Source of the DNA: Anaerolineae bacterium
GTDB taxonomy: Bacteria > Chloroflexota > Anaerolineae > JAADDB01
NCBI GenBank assembly: GCA_015490995.1
Contig: WFWT01000128.1
Location: 1 to 64,000 of the forward strand
DNA length: 64,000 bases
Reading direction: 5' to 3'
Part shown: one piece after another, positions 2,985-44,275 of the stretch
Layout of the letters: the number at the start of each line of letters is the position of its first letter
How positions within the stretch are numbered: position 1 is the stretch's first letter
Made by a program: the position numbers and the translations under genes
The notes under the pieces: model-generated
What the model was told of the DNA's origin: nothing
What the model saw: only the letters and a program-made list of their open reading frames with translations
Database searches by the model: none

Positions 2985-3851
2985 TTATCCTCCCCCACGC
3001 CTTGGCTCCGTGGCGAGGACGGCTACGGTAGCTATCGCCCCGGGGCCCACATGTGCTGCCAGGATGGGGCCGGCTTCCACCACCGGCACCCGTCCGGACG
3101 GCCAGCCTAAGGCCTCGGTCAAACGCTGGGCCATAATCGCTGCTTCATCAGGACGGCGGGTGTGAACCACCCACACGTCCTCCAGGGGCGACCATGCCAG
3201 TGTGTGACGGTAGAGCATCTCCATCCCACCACTCCAAGAGCGTTGCACGCCCAGCAGACGTACCTCACCCTCCACCACCTGGAGCAACACTTTCACCCGA
3301 AACACGCGGGCTGTACGCCGGATGAGGGGCATCAGGTAAGCAATACGCCCTCCTCGCTCTGCCCAATCCAGGGTATCCAGCACGGCCTGAAGGCGCACCC
3401 GAGCCCGCAGGTCGTACAGACGGCGGTGAATCGTCTCCAGGTCGTGGCCCTCTGCTGCCCACCGGGCCGCTGCGAGCACCTGCACACCGGCCCCCAGGCT
3501 GAGATTTTGGGTGTCGAACACCACCATGCGGCCTTTGAAGCTTTCCGCTGCCAGCACAAAAGAACGATGTACTGCCGAAAGCCGGCCCGTCAACGTTAGG
3601 GCCAGAACCCTGTGCCCCCCCGACACTACGGGCCGGACGGCTTCAATAATGCGGCCCGGGGGAGGCGCGGCCGTTTGCGGTCGTTCACCCGTCTCGGCCA
3701 CCAGTGCCCAGAAACGGTCCAACGTGAGTTCAGCCGTAGTCACGAAGTGCTGCCCCACGCGGATGTCCAGGGGAATGACCAGAACGCCATATCGTCTCTG
3801 GAGGGTCTCCGGCACATCACACGCGCTGTCGCACACAATTTGCACGTTCAT
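2985..3851 (-). CDS. DegV family protein (fatty-acid binding)
   Basis: MNVQIVCDSACDVPETLQRRYGVLVIPLDIRVG, typical DegV N-terminus. Confidence 0.85.
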   Translation of the reverse strand: MNVQIVCDSACDVPETLQRRYGVLVIPLDIRVGQHFVTTAELTLDRFWALVAETGERPQTAAPPPGRIIEAVRPVVSGGHRVLALTLTGRLSAVHRSFVLAAESFKGRMVVFDTQNLSLGAGVQVLAAARWAAEGHDLETIHRRLYDLRARVRLQAVLDTLDWAERGGRIAYLMPLIRRTARVFRVKVLLQVVEGEVRLLGVQRSWSGGMEMLYRHTLAWSPLEDVWVVHTRRPDEAAIMAQRLTEALGWPSGRVPVVEAGPILAAHVGPGAIATVAVLATEPRRGGG

Positions 3852-3880
3852 AGTGTACCGTCACCTGCCGCTATAGGTGA

Positions 3881-4903
3881 CTAACTCTCGAAGATCTTCA
3901 CAATCTCGTCCACTGCGGGCGGAGTAAGCGGGCGCTGCTGGCCGTTGCGGAAGATCCATCGCCCTTCCTCCGGCGAGGTGATATGGCCGATGATGCGGGC
4001 GGGAATCCCGTGCTCTTCCAGCGTGGTGATCAATGCCGGCGCATCCGCCGGTTCACACGCGATAAGCAACGCGCCCGACGCGATGGTGCCCATGGGGTCC
4101 AGGCCGTATACCTCGCACAGGAACTGGCCCTCCGGCACAACAGGCACATCATCCAGGTTCACCTCTACACCTACACCGGCAGCCTCGGCCAGTTCCCAGA
4201 TACCCATCAGCAAACCACCTTCGGTGGGATCGTGCATTGCGTGTACCTGAGCCGTTTCCAGGGCCAACATGGCCGTCTTGACGACGCTGATACCAGGGGT
4301 GTGGAGGTAATCGGCCGCGCGCGTCAGGAGATCCGGGGACACACCAAGGCGCAGCAGCTCCTCCCGCCGTTCCCTGGCGATGATCGCGGTACCCTCAATG
4401 GGCACGCCTCGCGCCAGGATCAGCGCGTCCCCCGGTTGAGCGCCCGCGGTAGAGATGAGGCGATCGGGATGGACTTCACCCAGCATGACACCAATGGCCA
4501 GGGGACGGGACAGGTCATAGGACACCTCGGTGTGCCCTCCGACCAACAGGGCCCCCACTTCCTCACAGGCCTGAGCTATCTGGTGAAAGATGCGCTCCAC
4601 GTCCTCCTCTTTGGCCTGGCCCTCCGGCAGGAGTAGGGTGACCAAAAACCAGCGAGGGACGGCGCCCATCACAGCGACATCGTTAGCGTTTACGTGAACA
4701 ACGTACCAGCCAATCTCATCGGTGGCGAAGGTAATGGGGTCCATGCCTGCCACCACTACCCGTTCCTCCAGCGCGATGGCCGTGGCGTCCTCCCCAACAG
4801 CCGGCCCCACCAGCAAACGTTCATGGCTTCGGCTGTACCGCTGTAGTAGAGAGCGCAGCAGCTCGTGGGGGATTTTTCCTGTGCTGAGCACCGTGGATTT
4901 CAT
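3881..4903 (-). CDS. AIR synthase-related protein, HypE-like
   Basis: AVGEDATAIAL, HVNANDVAVMGAVPRWFLVTLLLPEG, HDPTEGGLLMGIWELAEAAGVG. Confidence 0.8.
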   Translation of the reverse strand: MKSTVLSTGKIPHELLRSLLQRYSRSHERLLVGPAVGEDATAIALEERVVVAGMDPITFATDEIGWYVVHVNANDVAVMGAVPRWFLVTLLLPEGQAKEEDVERIFHQIAQACEEVGALLVGGHTEVSYDLSRPLAIGVMLGEVHPDRLISTAGAQPGDALILARGVPIEGTAIIARERREELLRLGVSPDLLTRAADYLHTPGISVVKTAMLALETAQVHAMHDPTEGGLLMGIWELAEAAGVGVEVNLDDVPVVPEGQFLCEVYGLDPMGTIASGALLIACEPADAPALITTLEEHGIPARIIGHITSPEEGRWIFRNGQQRPLTPPAVDEIVKIFES

Positions 4904-5025
4904 GCAGGCCTCCTTGTGTACCTCGGGTTCGTACTATCTTTACACCGACACAAGATGATGTCGGCCGGGCCATCCCCGAATCGGGGAGCAGCCTTTCCGG
5001 AAGGTGCGTGGGGCACGACCGCGCG

Positions 5026-6150
5026 TTAAGGGGCAACCGCTGCCACCGCCCTGTGAGGGGCCTCATCGGTGAGGACCGCTTCCACAAACGCGCGCAGCTT
5101 TTGGCGAAATACCGATGTGGCAAACATCTCCGCTCGGGCTCGACAGGCCAGGGGGTCATAGCGGGTCGGATCAAAGTCAGCCAACACTGCGGCCAGTGCG
5201 TCTACCGTCTGAGGGTGAAAGAACTCCCCGGTCTCGCCGGGAACAACCGTATCCAACGCGCCGCCCCCGGCATACGCGATGACAGGCCGGCCACAGGCCA
5301 TCGCTTCAACCGGGGCGATGCCGAAATCTTCTAAGCCGGGAAACAGAAACGCCCGTGCCCCCTGCATTAATCGTACCAGTTCCGCGTCCGACACCCGCCC
5401 CAAGAACCGCACCGTAGGCCCGGCCATGCGCTCCAGCGCCTTGCGGTCCCTCCCCTCCCCCACGACCAGCAGGGGAACACCCAAGCGAGTGCACGCCTGC
5501 ACGGCCAGGTCCACACGCTTGTACGGGATGAGCCGAGAGACCACGAGGTAATAGTCTCCCGGTGGTGTCCGCGCGGGCACAAACCGGTCGGTGTCTACCG
5601 GCGGGTGAATGATCACGCTCTCGCGACGGTAAAACTTGCGGATGCGCGCCTGAACCACCCGAGAGATGGCTATAAAGTGATCGACCCGCTCCGCGGCCAA
5701 CCGGTCCAACATGCGTTGCCAGGTAAGGATAGGCTGAAGCAACGCATTCGTCCATCGACCAATGCCCTCCCGACGACGATACTCGGCATATTGCCACAAA
5801 AAACGGGTAGGGGTCAGACAGTAACAAATGTGCGTCGTTTCGGGAGGGGTGATCACGCTGTGGGCAAAGGCGGACTTGTTGCTGATAACCACATCGTACC
5901 CTGTCAAGTCGAACGATTCGAAAGCCAGGGGGTACAGGGGCAGATACCAGAGGTGATGTGCCCCTACCCCCGGCAGACGGTTCATCCAGGACACGCGTAT
6001 ATCCCACGTGCGATAAGCGGGAGAGACCCGTTGGGGGTCGTAAATGCTGGTGTACACGGGCGCACCGGGAAACAGAGCGACCAAGGCCTCCAACACCTGT
6101 TCGGCCCCGCCCATCTGGTTCAACCAATCGTGTACCAGCGCGACCCGCAT
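5026..6150 (-). CDS. Glycosyltransferase family 4
   Basis: MRVALVHDWLNQMGGAEQVLEAL ... GLEDFGIAPVEAMACGRPVIAYAGGGALDTV. GGAGGAAAC precedes ATG at 6150. Confidence 0.88.
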   Translation of the reverse strand: MRVALVHDWLNQMGGAEQVLEALVALFPGAPVYTSIYDPQRVSPAYRTWDIRVSWMNRLPGVGAHHLWYLPLYPLAFESFDLTGYDVVISNKSAFAHSVITPPETTHICYCLTPTRFLWQYAEYRRREGIGRWTNALLQPILTWQRMLDRLAAERVDHFIAISRVVQARIRKFYRRESVIIHPPVDTDRFVPARTPPGDYYLVVSRLIPYKRVDLAVQACTRLGVPLLVVGEGRDRKALERMAGPTVRFLGRVSDAELVRLMQGARAFLFPGLEDFGIAPVEAMACGRPVIAYAGGGALDTVVPGETGEFFHPQTVDALAAVLADFDPTRYDPLACRARAEMFATSVFRQKLRAFVEAVLTDEAPHRAVAAVAP

Positions 6151-6272
6151 GTTTCCTCCATCCGGCATAGTTGATTCACGTTCAGCGGCATATCAGGTCA
6201 GATATGCCTCTACGTCGCGCACCGGCCCGAGACCCGTGTGCTCCACAGAAATCTCTATTCCACCCGGCAAGC

Positions 6273-7211
6273 TCACCCTCCCTCTGACAGCAAAATGTTG
6301 ACATAACTTTCATATCGACGAAAACTGATGGCTCCCTCTTCCACCGCGGCCACAACCGCGCACCCGGGCTCATCCAGGTGGCGGCAGTCGTTAAAACGGC
6401 ATTGGCCAAGATACGGCCGGAACTCAGGGAAATAATAATCTAGGTTGTCCACATCCACGCCCCACAGTCCTACTTCCCGCAACCCGGGGGTGTCTACAAT
6501 GTACCCCCCATCCCGCAAGGGGATCAACTGGGCCATCACCGTCGTGTGGCGGCCCTGGCGCCATTTGCGGCTGATCTCCGCTGTGGGCAGGTGCACGGTG
6601 GGTTCCAAGGCGTTAATCAAGCTGGATTTGCCCGTCCCTGAGGGGCCGGCCAGCACGGTGATCTTGCCCTGAAAGTGCTCTCGCAGCGCGGGGAGCCCTT
6701 CTCCGGTGGCCACGGAGATGTAAAACACTGGATATCCAGCGTCTTCGTACTCAGCGAAGATAGCGCGTGCCTCATCTGGGTCAGCCAGGTCGATCTTGTT
6801 GACAATCACCGCGGCAGGGATGTCATTGTCCTCCGCGATAACCAGCAGGCGGTCCAGCATTTGCAGGCGGGGGTGAGGATCCCGCACCGCGAACATAAAG
6901 AAGGCCTGGTCCGGGTTGGACACAATAACGTCCAGCCGTCCCAACGTGTTGGGCGCGCGGCGCACCAGCGCGCGCTCCCGGGGCGCGATCGCTTCGATGC
7001 GCCAGTCCCCACTGGCAGCTTGTTGCACGCGCACGTAGTCCCCTACCGCGATCAAGGTGCCCCGCCGTTCCCGCTTCAACACCCCACGCGGCACCGCGGG
7101 CACCACGGTGCCGTCCGCCAACAACACATCGGCCACCGGGCCTCGCACGCGGGCCACGATGCCGTTGTAATTTTGGGGAAAAGTTAAGTGAATCGTTTCG
7201 GCATCGCTCAT
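6273..7211 (-). CDS. rsgA: Ribosome small-subunit-dependent GTPase A
   Basis: Circularly permuted GTPase: NKIDLADPDE, GPSGTGKSSLINAL, DTPGLREVGLWG, then Cys/His cluster CRFNDCRHLDEPGCAV. Confidence 0.93.
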   Translation of the reverse strand: MSDAETIHLTFPQNYNGIVARVRGPVADVLLADGTVVPAVPRGVLKRERRGTLIAVGDYVRVQQAASGDWRIEAIAPRERALVRRAPNTLGRLDVIVSNPDQAFFMFAVRDPHPRLQMLDRLLVIAEDNDIPAAVIVNKIDLADPDEARAIFAEYEDAGYPVFYISVATGEGLPALREHFQGKITVLAGPSGTGKSSLINALEPTVHLPTAEISRKWRQGRHTTVMAQLIPLRDGGYIVDTPGLREVGLWGVDVDNLDYYFPEFRPYLGQCRFNDCRHLDEPGCAVVAAVEEGAISFRRYESYVNILLSEGG

Positions 7212-7223
7212 GATTGTCGCTTG

Positions 7224-7931
7224 CTAACCGCCTCCGTACTCGAAGATGTCTCCCTGCGGCTCTTCTGCCGACCAACAACACACGCCGAACACGAGACGGC
7301 ACGCTTTATCAGGATGGGTGGGCACAGGTCCCCCCAACTTTTGGAGAAGGGATATCATCACCCGGATGGGCAACCCCATTACCGTGGCCCGACATCCCTC
7401 CACCTTATCTACCGGCCGAAAGGCAGGGTGCTGAATAGCGTATCCCCCTGCCTTGTCCAGCGGATCGCCGGACGCGAGGTACACGGCCAGTTCGTGTGAG
7501 GTGAAAGGGCGTATGTGTACCCGCGCGATGTCAACTTCGGTTTGCGTCGCACGCACCTGGCCGGAGTGCGGCACCTCCATCAGCGTAATGGCTGTATACA
7601 CCAGATGCCATCGGTCGCGCAAGGCCAACAACATCGCGCGGGCTTCAGCCACATCGCGAGGCTTGCCGAGGATCCGGCCGTCAAGAACGACCACGGTGTC
7701 CGCTGCCAGGATAAGGCCTGCTTCTCGTTGGGCCACCCAGTGTGCTTTGGCCCGGCTCAGACGGGAGACCAGCGCAGCCGGCGATTCGCCGGGCAACGGC
7801 ACCTCGTCCACCGCTGTTGGACGTACCCGATGAGGTATGCCCAACAGCCGTAGCAGCTCCTGACGCCGGGGAGAAGCCGAAGCCAAAATCAGAAGGGGGT
7901 ATCGCTGGGTCGGGCTCATAGGTCGGTCCAT
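7224..7931 (-). CDS. maf: Maf family nucleoside triphosphate pyrophosphatase
   Basis: LILASASPRRQELLRLLGIPHRV, ADTVVVLDGRILGKP; start may be ATG at 7919. Confidence 0.9.
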   Translation of the reverse strand: MDRPMSPTQRYPLLILASASPRRQELLRLLGIPHRVRPTAVDEVPLPGESPAALVSRLSRAKAHWVAQREAGLILAADTVVVLDGRILGKPRDVAEARAMLLALRDRWHLVYTAITLMEVPHSGQVRATQTEVDIARVHIRPFTSHELAVYLASGDPLDKAGGYAIQHPAFRPVDKVEGCRATVMGLPIRVMISLLQKLGGPVPTHPDKACRLVFGVCCWSAEEPQGDIFEYGGG

Positions 7932-7934
7932 GGG

Positions 7935-7963
7935 CCGGGGCCCTCTCTTGGAGAGGGCCCCGG
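7935..7963. terminator. Perfect 13-bp stem / 3-nt loop GC-rich hairpin
   Basis: CCGGGGCCCTCTC-TTG-GAGAGGGCCCCGG between the PFOR beta stop and the maf start; no clear U-tract on the minus strand. Confidence 0.5.
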
Positions 7964-7973
7964 TTTGGGAACG

Positions 7974-9587
7974 TTAACGCAGGCCGGCCAGTTCCTGGAG
8001 CATCCGCCAGTTGCGGAGGCGCTCTTCATTGGCAGCCAACAGGGTCGGGGACGGGTTGCCTTCCTTGTCAAACTGCTTGGCGAAGCGACCCTCCGTGCGG
8101 GCGAAGGTGATGAAATTGTACACCTCGCCCGTCTTGGGGTCGCGATACCAGTCCTCCTTCACGGCCGGGTTACCCTTCAGGCTCAAGCGCTCACGAATCG
8201 TCTCGCCCTTCCGCGGGTCGTAGATGAAGAGCGGAAAGGTGCGGGTATCCACGGCTAACCGCGCCTGGTGCGCGGACATCTCATCACCGACGCCGTGCTC
8301 GGGCTGGCAGGTGGTGTAGCAGATGATGACCGAAGGCCCTTCGTAGGAGGCCGCGTCCAGCACTGCCCGGTAGAAGTGGTTGTAGTGGGCAGGTGTCGTC
8401 TGAGCGATGAACGCGTCCGGGTGCATCATCAGGATGCGCCCGATCTCCTTGCGGGCCTCCTGCTTGCCCTGGATGGCCTTGCCAAAGGGTGCCATCTTGG
8501 CCTCCTGCCCCATGAAGGAGGCGGTGCTCGCCTGCCCTCCCGTGTTGGAATAGACCTGGGTGTCCAGCACGAAGACGTTGATGTTCATACCGGAGGCGAG
8601 CATGCGGCTCAATGCCTGGAACCCAATGTCGAACATCGCCCCATCGCCGCCGATCACCCACAATTGCTTGTCCTTCCACCCCATCTGGTCCCACCGGGCG
8701 CGCACCCCCATGGCAAAGGTGGCCGCGTTTTCGAACAACGAATTGCTCCAGGGGGTCAGGAAGGGGTTGTACGGATAGGTGGAACCGTATACCGTGTTGC
8801 AACCGGTTGCCGCGATAAGGCCGATGTTCTCCCGACCGTACACAAACCCCAGGGCGGCCAGCAACATGCGCAAGGCCGTGCCCTCACCACATCCCGCGCA
8901 GGACCCCGCCCCACCGGTGTACAGGAGGGACTCCTCGGCCAGCATCATGTCGATGAGCACCCGTTCGTTGATGAACCGCTTGGGGGTGGGGGGCAGTTTG
9001 CGGAAGAACTCGATGGCCTTGCGGTATGTGGGTACGGTATCATCCGCTTTCTTGATCATTTTGAGCGCGTTGTACCCCAACTCGTGGCAGACCTGCACGC
9101 ATTCCGCACATCCCTTGCACTTGGTGGGATCGATGAAGATGCCAAACAGGCCTCCCGAACCGGGTTGTTTCTTCTCGTAGGTCTTGTAATACTTAGTGGT
9201 CACCGTGAAGTGCCGCCGCAACGTCTCCCGCTCCTCCTCCGGCACTTCGGCCAGCTTCGCCTCCAGCACCTGGGGTTCCACCACCTTGCCCAGGATGGCG
9301 GTGTCCGGACACTCGGTAACGCACGTCATGCATCCCACACAGTTTTCGGGGATGAACTCCGGGATTTCAGGGGCAATGTAGGAAAAATCCCGGTAATAAG
9401 CGGTGCCTGCGGGGATCAGACTGCGGGCAACGTAGGGATCGGCCGGCAATTCCTCCGGCCCCCAGCCCTCGTTGTAACCTCGGATAACCTGCTCAAAAAA
9501 CTGGTCAAAGTCTATAACCTCCTGGGGAAGTTTGCCCTCCCCTTTCGCCAACGCGCGAATATCAACGACATCGGTTGTGATGCCCAT
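7974..9587 (-). CDS. 2-oxoacid (pyruvate):ferredoxin oxidoreductase, fused ferredoxin (delta) and TPP-binding beta subunit
   Basis: Two 4Fe-4S motifs (CVGCMTCVTECP, CKGCAECVQVCHELG) followed by GSCAGCGEG, GDGAMFDIGFQALSR and NTGGQAS TPP-domain motifs. Confidence 0.88.
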   Translation of the reverse strand: MGITTDVVDIRALAKGEGKLPQEVIDFDQFFEQVIRGYNEGWGPEELPADPYVARSLIPAGTAYYRDFSYIAPEIPEFIPENCVGCMTCVTECPDTAILGKVVEPQVLEAKLAEVPEEERETLRRHFTVTTKYYKTYEKKQPGSGGLFGIFIDPTKCKGCAECVQVCHELGYNALKMIKKADDTVPTYRKAIEFFRKLPPTPKRFINERVLIDMMLAEESLLYTGGAGSCAGCGEGTALRMLLAALGFVYGRENIGLIAATGCNTVYGSTYPYNPFLTPWSNSLFENAATFAMGVRARWDQMGWKDKQLWVIGGDGAMFDIGFQALSRMLASGMNINVFVLDTQVYSNTGGQASTASFMGQEAKMAPFGKAIQGKQEARKEIGRILMMHPDAFIAQTTPAHYNHFYRAVLDAASYEGPSVIICYTTCQPEHGVGDEMSAHQARLAVDTRTFPLFIYDPRKGETIRERLSLKGNPAVKEDWYRDPKTGEVYNFITFARTEGRFAKQFDKEGNPSPTLLAANEERLRNWRMLQELAGLR

Positions 9588-42446: not shown

Positions 42447-42483
42447 CCGGAGCGGCCGTGCCAAACACTCATCCAGCAGAAAG
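42447..42483. repeat. Left copy of a 37-bp direct repeat
   Basis: CCGGAGCGGCCGTGCCAAACACTCATCCAGCAGAAAG; one mismatch to 44239-44275. Confidence 0.9.
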
Positions 42484-42532
42484 TGGCCCTCCCCATCCCT
42501 ATCCCAATAATGTGTTCCTTTGGCCATAATCA

Positions 42533-42574
42533 TAGTCTAAGCTATCATAGTTTAAACTATGATAGCTTAGACTA
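42533..42574. repeat. 42-bp perfect palindrome, AT-rich
   Basis: TAGTCTAAGCTATCATAGTTTAAACTATGATAGCTTAGACTA is its own reverse complement. Confidence 0.95.
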
Positions 42575-42783
42575 CTGCTCGGCCGCGCCGGTTCTTGTAG
42601 GATAAAGGCGATGACGAAGAGAAACGGCCGGGTAAAGGGGGAAAACAAACGAGGAACTACACGTTGTGTGCGGACTGCGTCCGCCCCCTCTTCCGTTCCC
42701 CCTTCTGCCGTCGCTTTCCATTGCCCAGAGCTGTCGTTGCTGTAGAAATCACAGAGGTCAAGTACTCCTAATGGGGAGGTGCC

Positions 42784-44181
42784 ATGTTCACCAACAGAGA
42801 ACGGGAATTGGAGGTCCTGGAACAACGCTATGCCTCGGACAGGGCAGAGTTGTTTATCCTCTACGGACGCCGACGTGTAGGTAAGACGGAACTCTTACGC
42901 GAGTTCTGTCGTGACAAACGCCACATTTTCTACGTCGCTGACTTAGGCACGGAGGCTACGGCCCTGGCAGAATTCACACGCCGGATAAGCGTCTTTGCTT
43001 ACGGCCGCCCTGATGCCATCAGCCCGTTCGCCTCATGGGATGCCGCCTTCGAGTTCCTCGTCCCCTACGCCAACGAGGAGCGGTTGGTTGTCGTCCTCGA
43101 TGAGTTCACGTACCTCATTCAGATCAACTCCGCCATCCCCTCCATCCTCCAACGTCTGTGGGATACCCGGCTAAAGGATACCCGCATCATGCTTATTCTC
43201 TGTGGCTCCTACGTGGGCATGATGGAACAACACGTGTTAGCCTATCGCGCGCCCCTGTACGGACGGCGTACCGGCCAGTGGAAGTTGGCCCCGCTGGACT
43301 TCTGGGCAGCCCAAGCGTTCTTTCCTCGCCTCAACGCCGAGGACAAGGTACGAGCATTTGCTGTCTTGGGAGGTATCCCGGCTTACTTAGTCCACTTCCA
43401 GAATGCAGACGATTTAGGGACAGCCATCGCGGAGAACATCCTTAGGCCGGGGGTCTTTCTCTACGAGGAGCCCCGCTTCCTGCTCCTGGAGGAACTGCGC
43501 GAACCGCACAAGTATTTCGCCATTTTGGAGGCTATTGCCGGCGGAAAAACGCGGCACAACGAAATTGCCCAAGCCGCGGGCATCAACACATCATCCCTGC
43601 GTTTCTACCTGGACACCCTGCAAGAAATGGATCTGGTAGAACGGGTCGTGCCCGCTACCGTGGAGAAACCGCACAAATACAAGCGGGCTATCTATCGGCT
43701 TAAGGATAACTTCTTCCGTTTTTGGTTCCGGTTTGTCTATCCCAACCGGTCCATCCTGGAAGGAGGGGATGTGGCTTACGTACAACGCCACGTGACACGT
43801 TTCCTCGACGAGTTCACGACCCTCATATTCGAGGACATTTCCAGGCAATATGTCATGAGGCTCTATCACACAGGACGTTTGACGTGGGTGCCGGAGCGCG
43901 TGGGCGCATGGTGGGACGGCAGGGAGGAAATCGACGTTGTAGCCATTAACTTCCGCGAGGGCCACGTTCTCGTTGGCGAGTGTAAATGGTCGACACGTCC
44001 GGTAGGGATGAACGTATTGCAGGCTCTCATGGCCAAAGCGGGAAGGCTTCCCCTGGCTAGGGGGCAAGAGGTGACTTATGCCCTCTTCTCGCGCACAGGA
44101 TTTACACATGAGGTACAACAATATGCTAAGGCGGGAGGGAACGTAGTATTGGTAGGATTGGAGGACATCGTTAGGGGGTGA
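42784..44181 (+). CDS. AAA ATPase (archaeal-type ATPase) with DUF234-like PD-(D/E)XK C-terminal region
   Basis: FTNRERELEVLEQRY, LYGRRRVGKTELLREFC (Walker A), VVVLDEFTYL (Walker B), winged-helix middle, C-terminal EEIDVVAINFREGHVLVGECKW resembling a PD-(D/E)XK core. Confidence 0.85.
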   Translation: MFTNRERELEVLEQRYASDRAELFILYGRRRVGKTELLREFCRDKRHIFYVADLGTEATALAEFTRRISVFAYGRPDAISPFASWDAAFEFLVPYANEERLVVVLDEFTYLIQINSAIPSILQRLWDTRLKDTRIMLILCGSYVGMMEQHVLAYRAPLYGRRTGQWKLAPLDFWAAQAFFPRLNAEDKVRAFAVLGGIPAYLVHFQNADDLGTAIAENILRPGVFLYEEPRFLLLEELREPHKYFAILEAIAGGKTRHNEIAQAAGINTSSLRFYLDTLQEMDLVERVVPATVEKPHKYKRAIYRLKDNFFRFWFRFVYPNRSILEGGDVAYVQRHVTRFLDEFTTLIFEDISRQYVMRLYHTGRLTWVPERVGAWWDGREEIDVVAINFREGHVLVGECKWSTRPVGMNVLQALMAKAGRLPLARGQEVTYALFSRTGFTHEVQQYAKAGGNVVLVGLEDIVRG

Positions 44182-44238
44182 GGACCGCGGCCTCCCATAG
44201 CGCCGGGATGCCTTAGGAGTCCATTGCCATCACCACTA

Positions 44239-44275
44239 CCGGAGCGGCCGTGCCAAACGCTCATCCAGCAGAAAG
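44239..44275. repeat. Right copy of a 37-bp direct repeat
   Basis: CCGGAGCGGCCGTGCCAAACGCTCATCCAGCAGAAAG; one mismatch to 42447-42483. Confidence 0.9.

Follow-up and report, generated by a model that had tools for sequence, protein, structure and literature searches.

PDC-S27 is a single-gene defence candidate, common in archaea, in which an ATPase is fused to a PD-(D/E)XK domain (PMC12988326). In the accessible text of that source it was classed with defence candidates by an embedding approach and was recorded 3,503 times in archaea and 4,562 times in bacteria; it was reported without experimental characterisation, most such candidates being unvalidated. It is among the more abundant uncharacterised candidate defences of archaea and bacteria. 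PDC-S01 (AAA_14 + DUF4143) is likewise a single-gene ATPase with a PD-(D/E)XK-type C-terminus. The controller (C) proteins of restriction-modification systems autoregulate through repeated near-palindromic operator sites before the nuclease gene, the C protein being a separate small regulator. In tandem att-site islands and integron cassettes, a single gene lies between direct repeats and is moved in trans.

The window analysed here is a stretch of 64,000 nucleotides from an Anaerolineae bacterium (contig WFWT01000128.1, positions 1–64,000). Between a cox operon and a polysaccharide locus it carries a PDC-S27 gene bracketed by two 37-bp direct repeats and preceded by a predicted palindromic operator. 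We interpret this unit as a mobile, self-repressing, single-gene anti-invader effector, that is, a one-gene cassette with its own regulated promoter, at a probability of roughly 0.6. The kind of gene is already known; what appears to be new is the recurrent operator with a 15-bp phase and the repeat-bracketed single-gene cassette. A literature search, with preprints and most subscription journals outside its reach, found no account of either, and the accessible text on PDC-S27 (PMC12988326) makes no mention of an operator; both the 15-bp-phased array and the cassette with its repeat boundaries are added here.

The gene (42784–44181, plus strand) encodes a 465-aa protein. Pfam assigned ATPase_2 and DUF234 domains with a helix-turn-helix in between, as the sequence-only reading had expected from its archaeal-type AAA ATPase/DUF234 layout. 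Walker A (GRRRVGKT, residues 28–35) lies at 42865–42888 and Walker B (D106-E107) at 43099–43104; K34 and D106-E107 were invariant in all 59 homologues. A winged helix-turn-helix (residues 243–290, 43510–43653; HTH_IclR, 7.3e-7) is the predicted operator-binding domain. The PD-(D/E)XK core proposed for the C-terminus was borne out by motif and by fold: it spans residues 372–436 (43897–44091) with D384, E399 and K401, of which D384 was kept in 55/59 and K401 in 58/59 homologues.

An AlphaFold2 model built from 13 sequences reached a mean pLDDT of 93 and a pTM of 0.90. Foldseek placed 2qen and 2fna, two archaeal STAND ATPases, nearest among solved folds; plant NLRs (NRC3 and, likewise more distant, ZAR1) and ORC/Cdc6 proteins came next. 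2qen and 2fna (350–352 residues) are shorter than the window protein and match its ATPase and winged-helix part. The C-terminal domain modelled alone (pLDDT 84) matched AF1548, MspJI (3.5e-4), EndoMS, Cdn1/Card1, the ISP enzyme LlaBIII and McrBC. These motif and model matches support a PD-(D/E)XK nuclease domain, for which cleavage is predicted.

The protein shares its domain order and its full-length profile with the phage-defence candidate PDC-S27 (PF01637 + PF03008); the PADLOC PDC-S27 profile matched residues 3–406 at 2.4e-49, and the profile match to PDC-S01 was weak. Since the family to which it belongs is already listed as a candidate phage defence, the description of the protein as undescribed had to be dropped, the fusion of an ATPase to PD-(D/E)XK having been described for PDC-S27 in the accessible text of PMC12988326.

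The two 37-bp repeats (left 42447–42483; right 44239–44275, 58 bp past the stop codon) lie on the same strand, are identical at 36/37 positions and are 1792 bp apart from start to start, with a chance expectation of 0. They form an att-like cassette boundary; as had been read from the letters, they enclose a single gene and no integrase. Compared with equally spaced flanks over the whole window, the flank-to-flank repeat score stood out at the gene with 34; the runner-up scored 16 and the median was 10. A whole-genome search allowing up to 3 mismatches detected these two copies only in the 3.04 Mb. No copy was found among 59 relatives, no exact 27-mer core in viral contigs and no full-length match in phages and plasmids. 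The G+C content was 55.5% in the bracketed interval vs 60.6% and 61.4% in its left and right surroundings. An integron attC site was considered for the 37-bp repeat and rejected (no attC-type fold; GCCAAAC differs from RYYYAAC). Unlike att islands and integron cassettes, the window unit has no integrase, and its repeat has no attC-type fold and is not a tRNA.

Similar arrangements were found elsewhere. In L127, the family gene lies alone between two 43-bp copies of the 5′ half of a tRNA-Thr(CGT); neither copy is an intact tRNA, and the intact form is present in two related genomes. In L089, a distant homologue lies alone between 84-bp repeats of 92% identity; the repeat core recurs a third time 1.1 kb further on, and a tyrosine integrase lies beyond. 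In L116, a sister-family gene (AAA_14/DUF4143, PDC-S01-type) lies alone between 95+26-bp repeats (647–767 and 2173–2295) of 99–100% identity. These bracketed genes in L127 and L089, and the sister gene in L116, support a recombination-defined cassette. Weaker or tighter repeats were seen in L144 and L142. Among about 45 other family loci, only 2 matched the window in the clarity of their repeats, as did the one sister gene. A score of at least 19 was reached by 4/44 family genes (window left out) and 2/112 controls, a borderline difference in a small sample (p = 0.054); the two passing controls proved to be L116 and an ORF running antisense across the L127 gene, and after their reassignment by hand 0/110 unrelated genes remained. 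A 22-bp repeat around the paralogue L098 was rejected as a cassette boundary, as it looks like a dispersed REP-type repeat. The 3542–8900 region of L089 holds three CCACCTCCACCA cores resembling a tRNA or tmRNA 3′ end and looks like a tandem att array with small cassettes.

The main competing explanation of the boundary is that the repeats are an incidental scar of local duplication or slippage and that the PDC-S27 gene between them is an ordinary one, acquired horizontally. In its favour, the closest homologues (L009, L010 and L012) have no such flanking repeats, indicating that the repeats do not come with the family as such; the 37-mer looks like neither a tRNA nor any known att site, folds no better than its shuffles and has no Rfam match; and the cassette has no integrase. 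Yet one complete transcription unit is bracketed exactly, the architecture recurs with longer repeats in L127, L089 and L116, and no unrelated gene reached the score of 19 after reassignment. We regard an incidental scar as unlikely, while giving it real weight, and the window gene as a recombination-defined one-gene cassette, a supported reading, and as a candidate mobile unit.

The distribution of the gene bears on the same point. The window's genome has one copy. The genus has a single further genome, the congener, which lacks the gene, as do 3/4 other genomes of the family; the fourth (G003) carries a 50% identical homologue. The closest relatives were in a Thermoflexus MAG (81%) and in L012 (86% over residues 1–210). 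L012, a contig of 3.6 kb, was assigned by binning to a Diapherotrites archaeon; only residues 1–210 were matched in it, and it may reflect either recent transfer or misbinning. Homologues were also found on 157 plasmids and within prophage-like contigs. The gene is patchy and moves horizontally. The neighbouring cox and polysaccharide genes were not syntenic in G001–G005, being conserved only in other contexts, so these genomes offered no syntenic empty site with a single repeat copy. Of the proposal that this was an undescribed recombination-defined unit rather than a core gene, the second part was supported by the absence from the congener and most of the family, by repeats unique to this boundary and by the similarly bracketed L127, L089 and L116; the first was not supported, given the PDC-S27 match.

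Such a gene could also be a single gene of a selfish or toxin-antitoxin-like kind, with an operator that keeps the gene's own toxicity in check, rather than a defence effector. It stands alone, its promoter is tightly regulated, as many as 8 matches occur in one genome, and it is found on plasmids and prophage-like contigs. The embedding approach, as far as the accessible text of PMC12988326 goes, places the family among defence candidates; the present data do not separate the two, and we consider the selfish reading rather unlikely. The genome with 8 matches is G067, an Anaerolineae genome in which they are spread over 7 contigs (L020, L095–L101), several with differing upstream dyads.

The predicted operator was missed by the sequence-only reading. 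A 42-bp perfect palindrome (42533–42574) overlaps a predicted sigma-70 promoter (TTGGCC-17-TATCAT, 42520–42548, plus strand; by consensus match only), with the −10 within the palindrome. The palindrome is built of three ATAG-N6-CTAT sites, each of 14 nt, that recur every 15 nt (42532–42545, 42547–42560 and 42562–42575, the last with one mismatch). The operator site is unique in the genome (up to 3 mismatches) and lies before the window gene, which fits the expectation for a dedicated autoregulator. Some 210 nt separate it from the start codon, more than in relatives, leaving an unusually long leader of about 209 nt (42575–42783) with an unconvincing 40-aa ORF inside. This leader holds an imperfect inverted repeat (42621–42643/42696–42718). 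A known structured RNA over the palindrome was considered and rejected, Rfam giving only a meaningless miRNA match far below threshold.

The near clade keeps ATAG-N6-CTAT at the 15-nt phase, and the same architecture occurs in other letters in Cetobacterium (three copies of ATAATTTAGATTATT), Mesorhizobium (GTAACCTTGATTACC) and the archaeon Halocatena (TTAGTCTAAACTACG). Over 60 family upstream regions, the mean self-similarity at lag 15 was 12.3/20 vs 8.7 for shuffled sequences; at other lags it stayed close to background, rising a little at 30, the double. At lag 15, 48% of the family scored at least 13/20, vs 4.2% of 165 control promoters (p = 3.5e-10). Among 30 non-redundant representatives (less than 50% identical, taken in random order, window left out), 16 passed at lag 15 vs about one at any other lag. 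Dyad strength was above that of control promoters (p = 1e-10), and the −10 lay inside the dyad in 23/38 cases vs 10 expected. The array accompanies DUF234-type genes across phyla and domains (bacteria and haloarchaea) and on plasmids. It was absent from the 8 sister-family (AAA_14/DUF4143) genes examined and from the distant L089-like clade, the latter indicating that the operator belongs to the DUF234-type clade. Given the recurrent period, arrayed operator sites and autorepression are predicted; the recurrent operator is also a quickly testable handle, predicting a 15-bp oligomer spacing on DNA.

In a sub-group of loci (L018, L063, L064, L078, L023, L060 and L066), very long single palindromes (47 bp in L078) were centred on a TATAAT-like −10, a geometry unlike the 15-bp array. 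In L081 (6520–6546 and 3197–3207), the operator-like dyad of an ABC-transporter gene (4672–6447, minus strand), CTAATCACGATTTATATAATCGTGATTAG, shares its core with that of the nearby DUF234 gene, suggesting that the regulator may control a second gene there.

The array might instead be bound by another host regulator, the ATPase not being its own repressor. Operator similarity tracked whole-protein identity (Mantel r = 0.36, p < 0.001), and a specific co-variation of operator and winged helix was not supported (partial r = −0.09). The winged helix accounted for no more of this similarity than did the remainder of the protein, which speaks for another regulator and leaves the gene's own product a putative operator binder. 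Against another host regulator, the array tracks DUF234-type genes over phyla, domains and plasmids, the site is unique in the genome, and the protein has a winged helix of its own; we think such a regulator improbable. A further idea from reading the letters, that a duplicated coding motif left the repeats as vestiges (on the reverse strand they read FLLDE[CR]LARPLR, like a PIN-domain start), is highly improbable, as Pfam found nothing in either copy, the near-identity extends over all codon positions and the genome has no further copies.

Under the preferred reading of a self-repressing one-gene cassette, a STAND-type NTPase switch is joined in one chain to a winged helix and a PD-(D/E)XK nuclease domain. 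At rest, several protomers would sit through their winged helices on the near-palindromic sites spaced by 15 bp and repress their own promoter, as the anatomy of the locus suggests. Invasion by a phage or plasmid is the probable trigger, which would switch the NTPase, relieve repression and activate the nuclease. If so, regulator and effector reside within one chain, the regulator being fused to the effector, whereas the C protein of restriction-modification systems is separate. The 37-bp repeats would be the left and right scars of a recombination event that brought the unit to its present site, with the cox operon on one side and the polysaccharide locus on the other, by a recombinase presumably acting in trans. 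Repeat-bracketed cassettes would explain how stand-alone genes move without a recombinase of their own.

Extending this to the family is tentative, and the odds are somewhat against it: DUF234-type PDC-S27 genes might generally be single-gene immune switches, in which STAND NTPase, repressor and nuclease act as an oligomer on a 15-bp array, activation by an invader links derepression to attack, and the genes travel between att-like repeats by means of the recombinases of other elements. Among the G067 copies, L098 has apparently lost its winged helix in frame and kept the operator.
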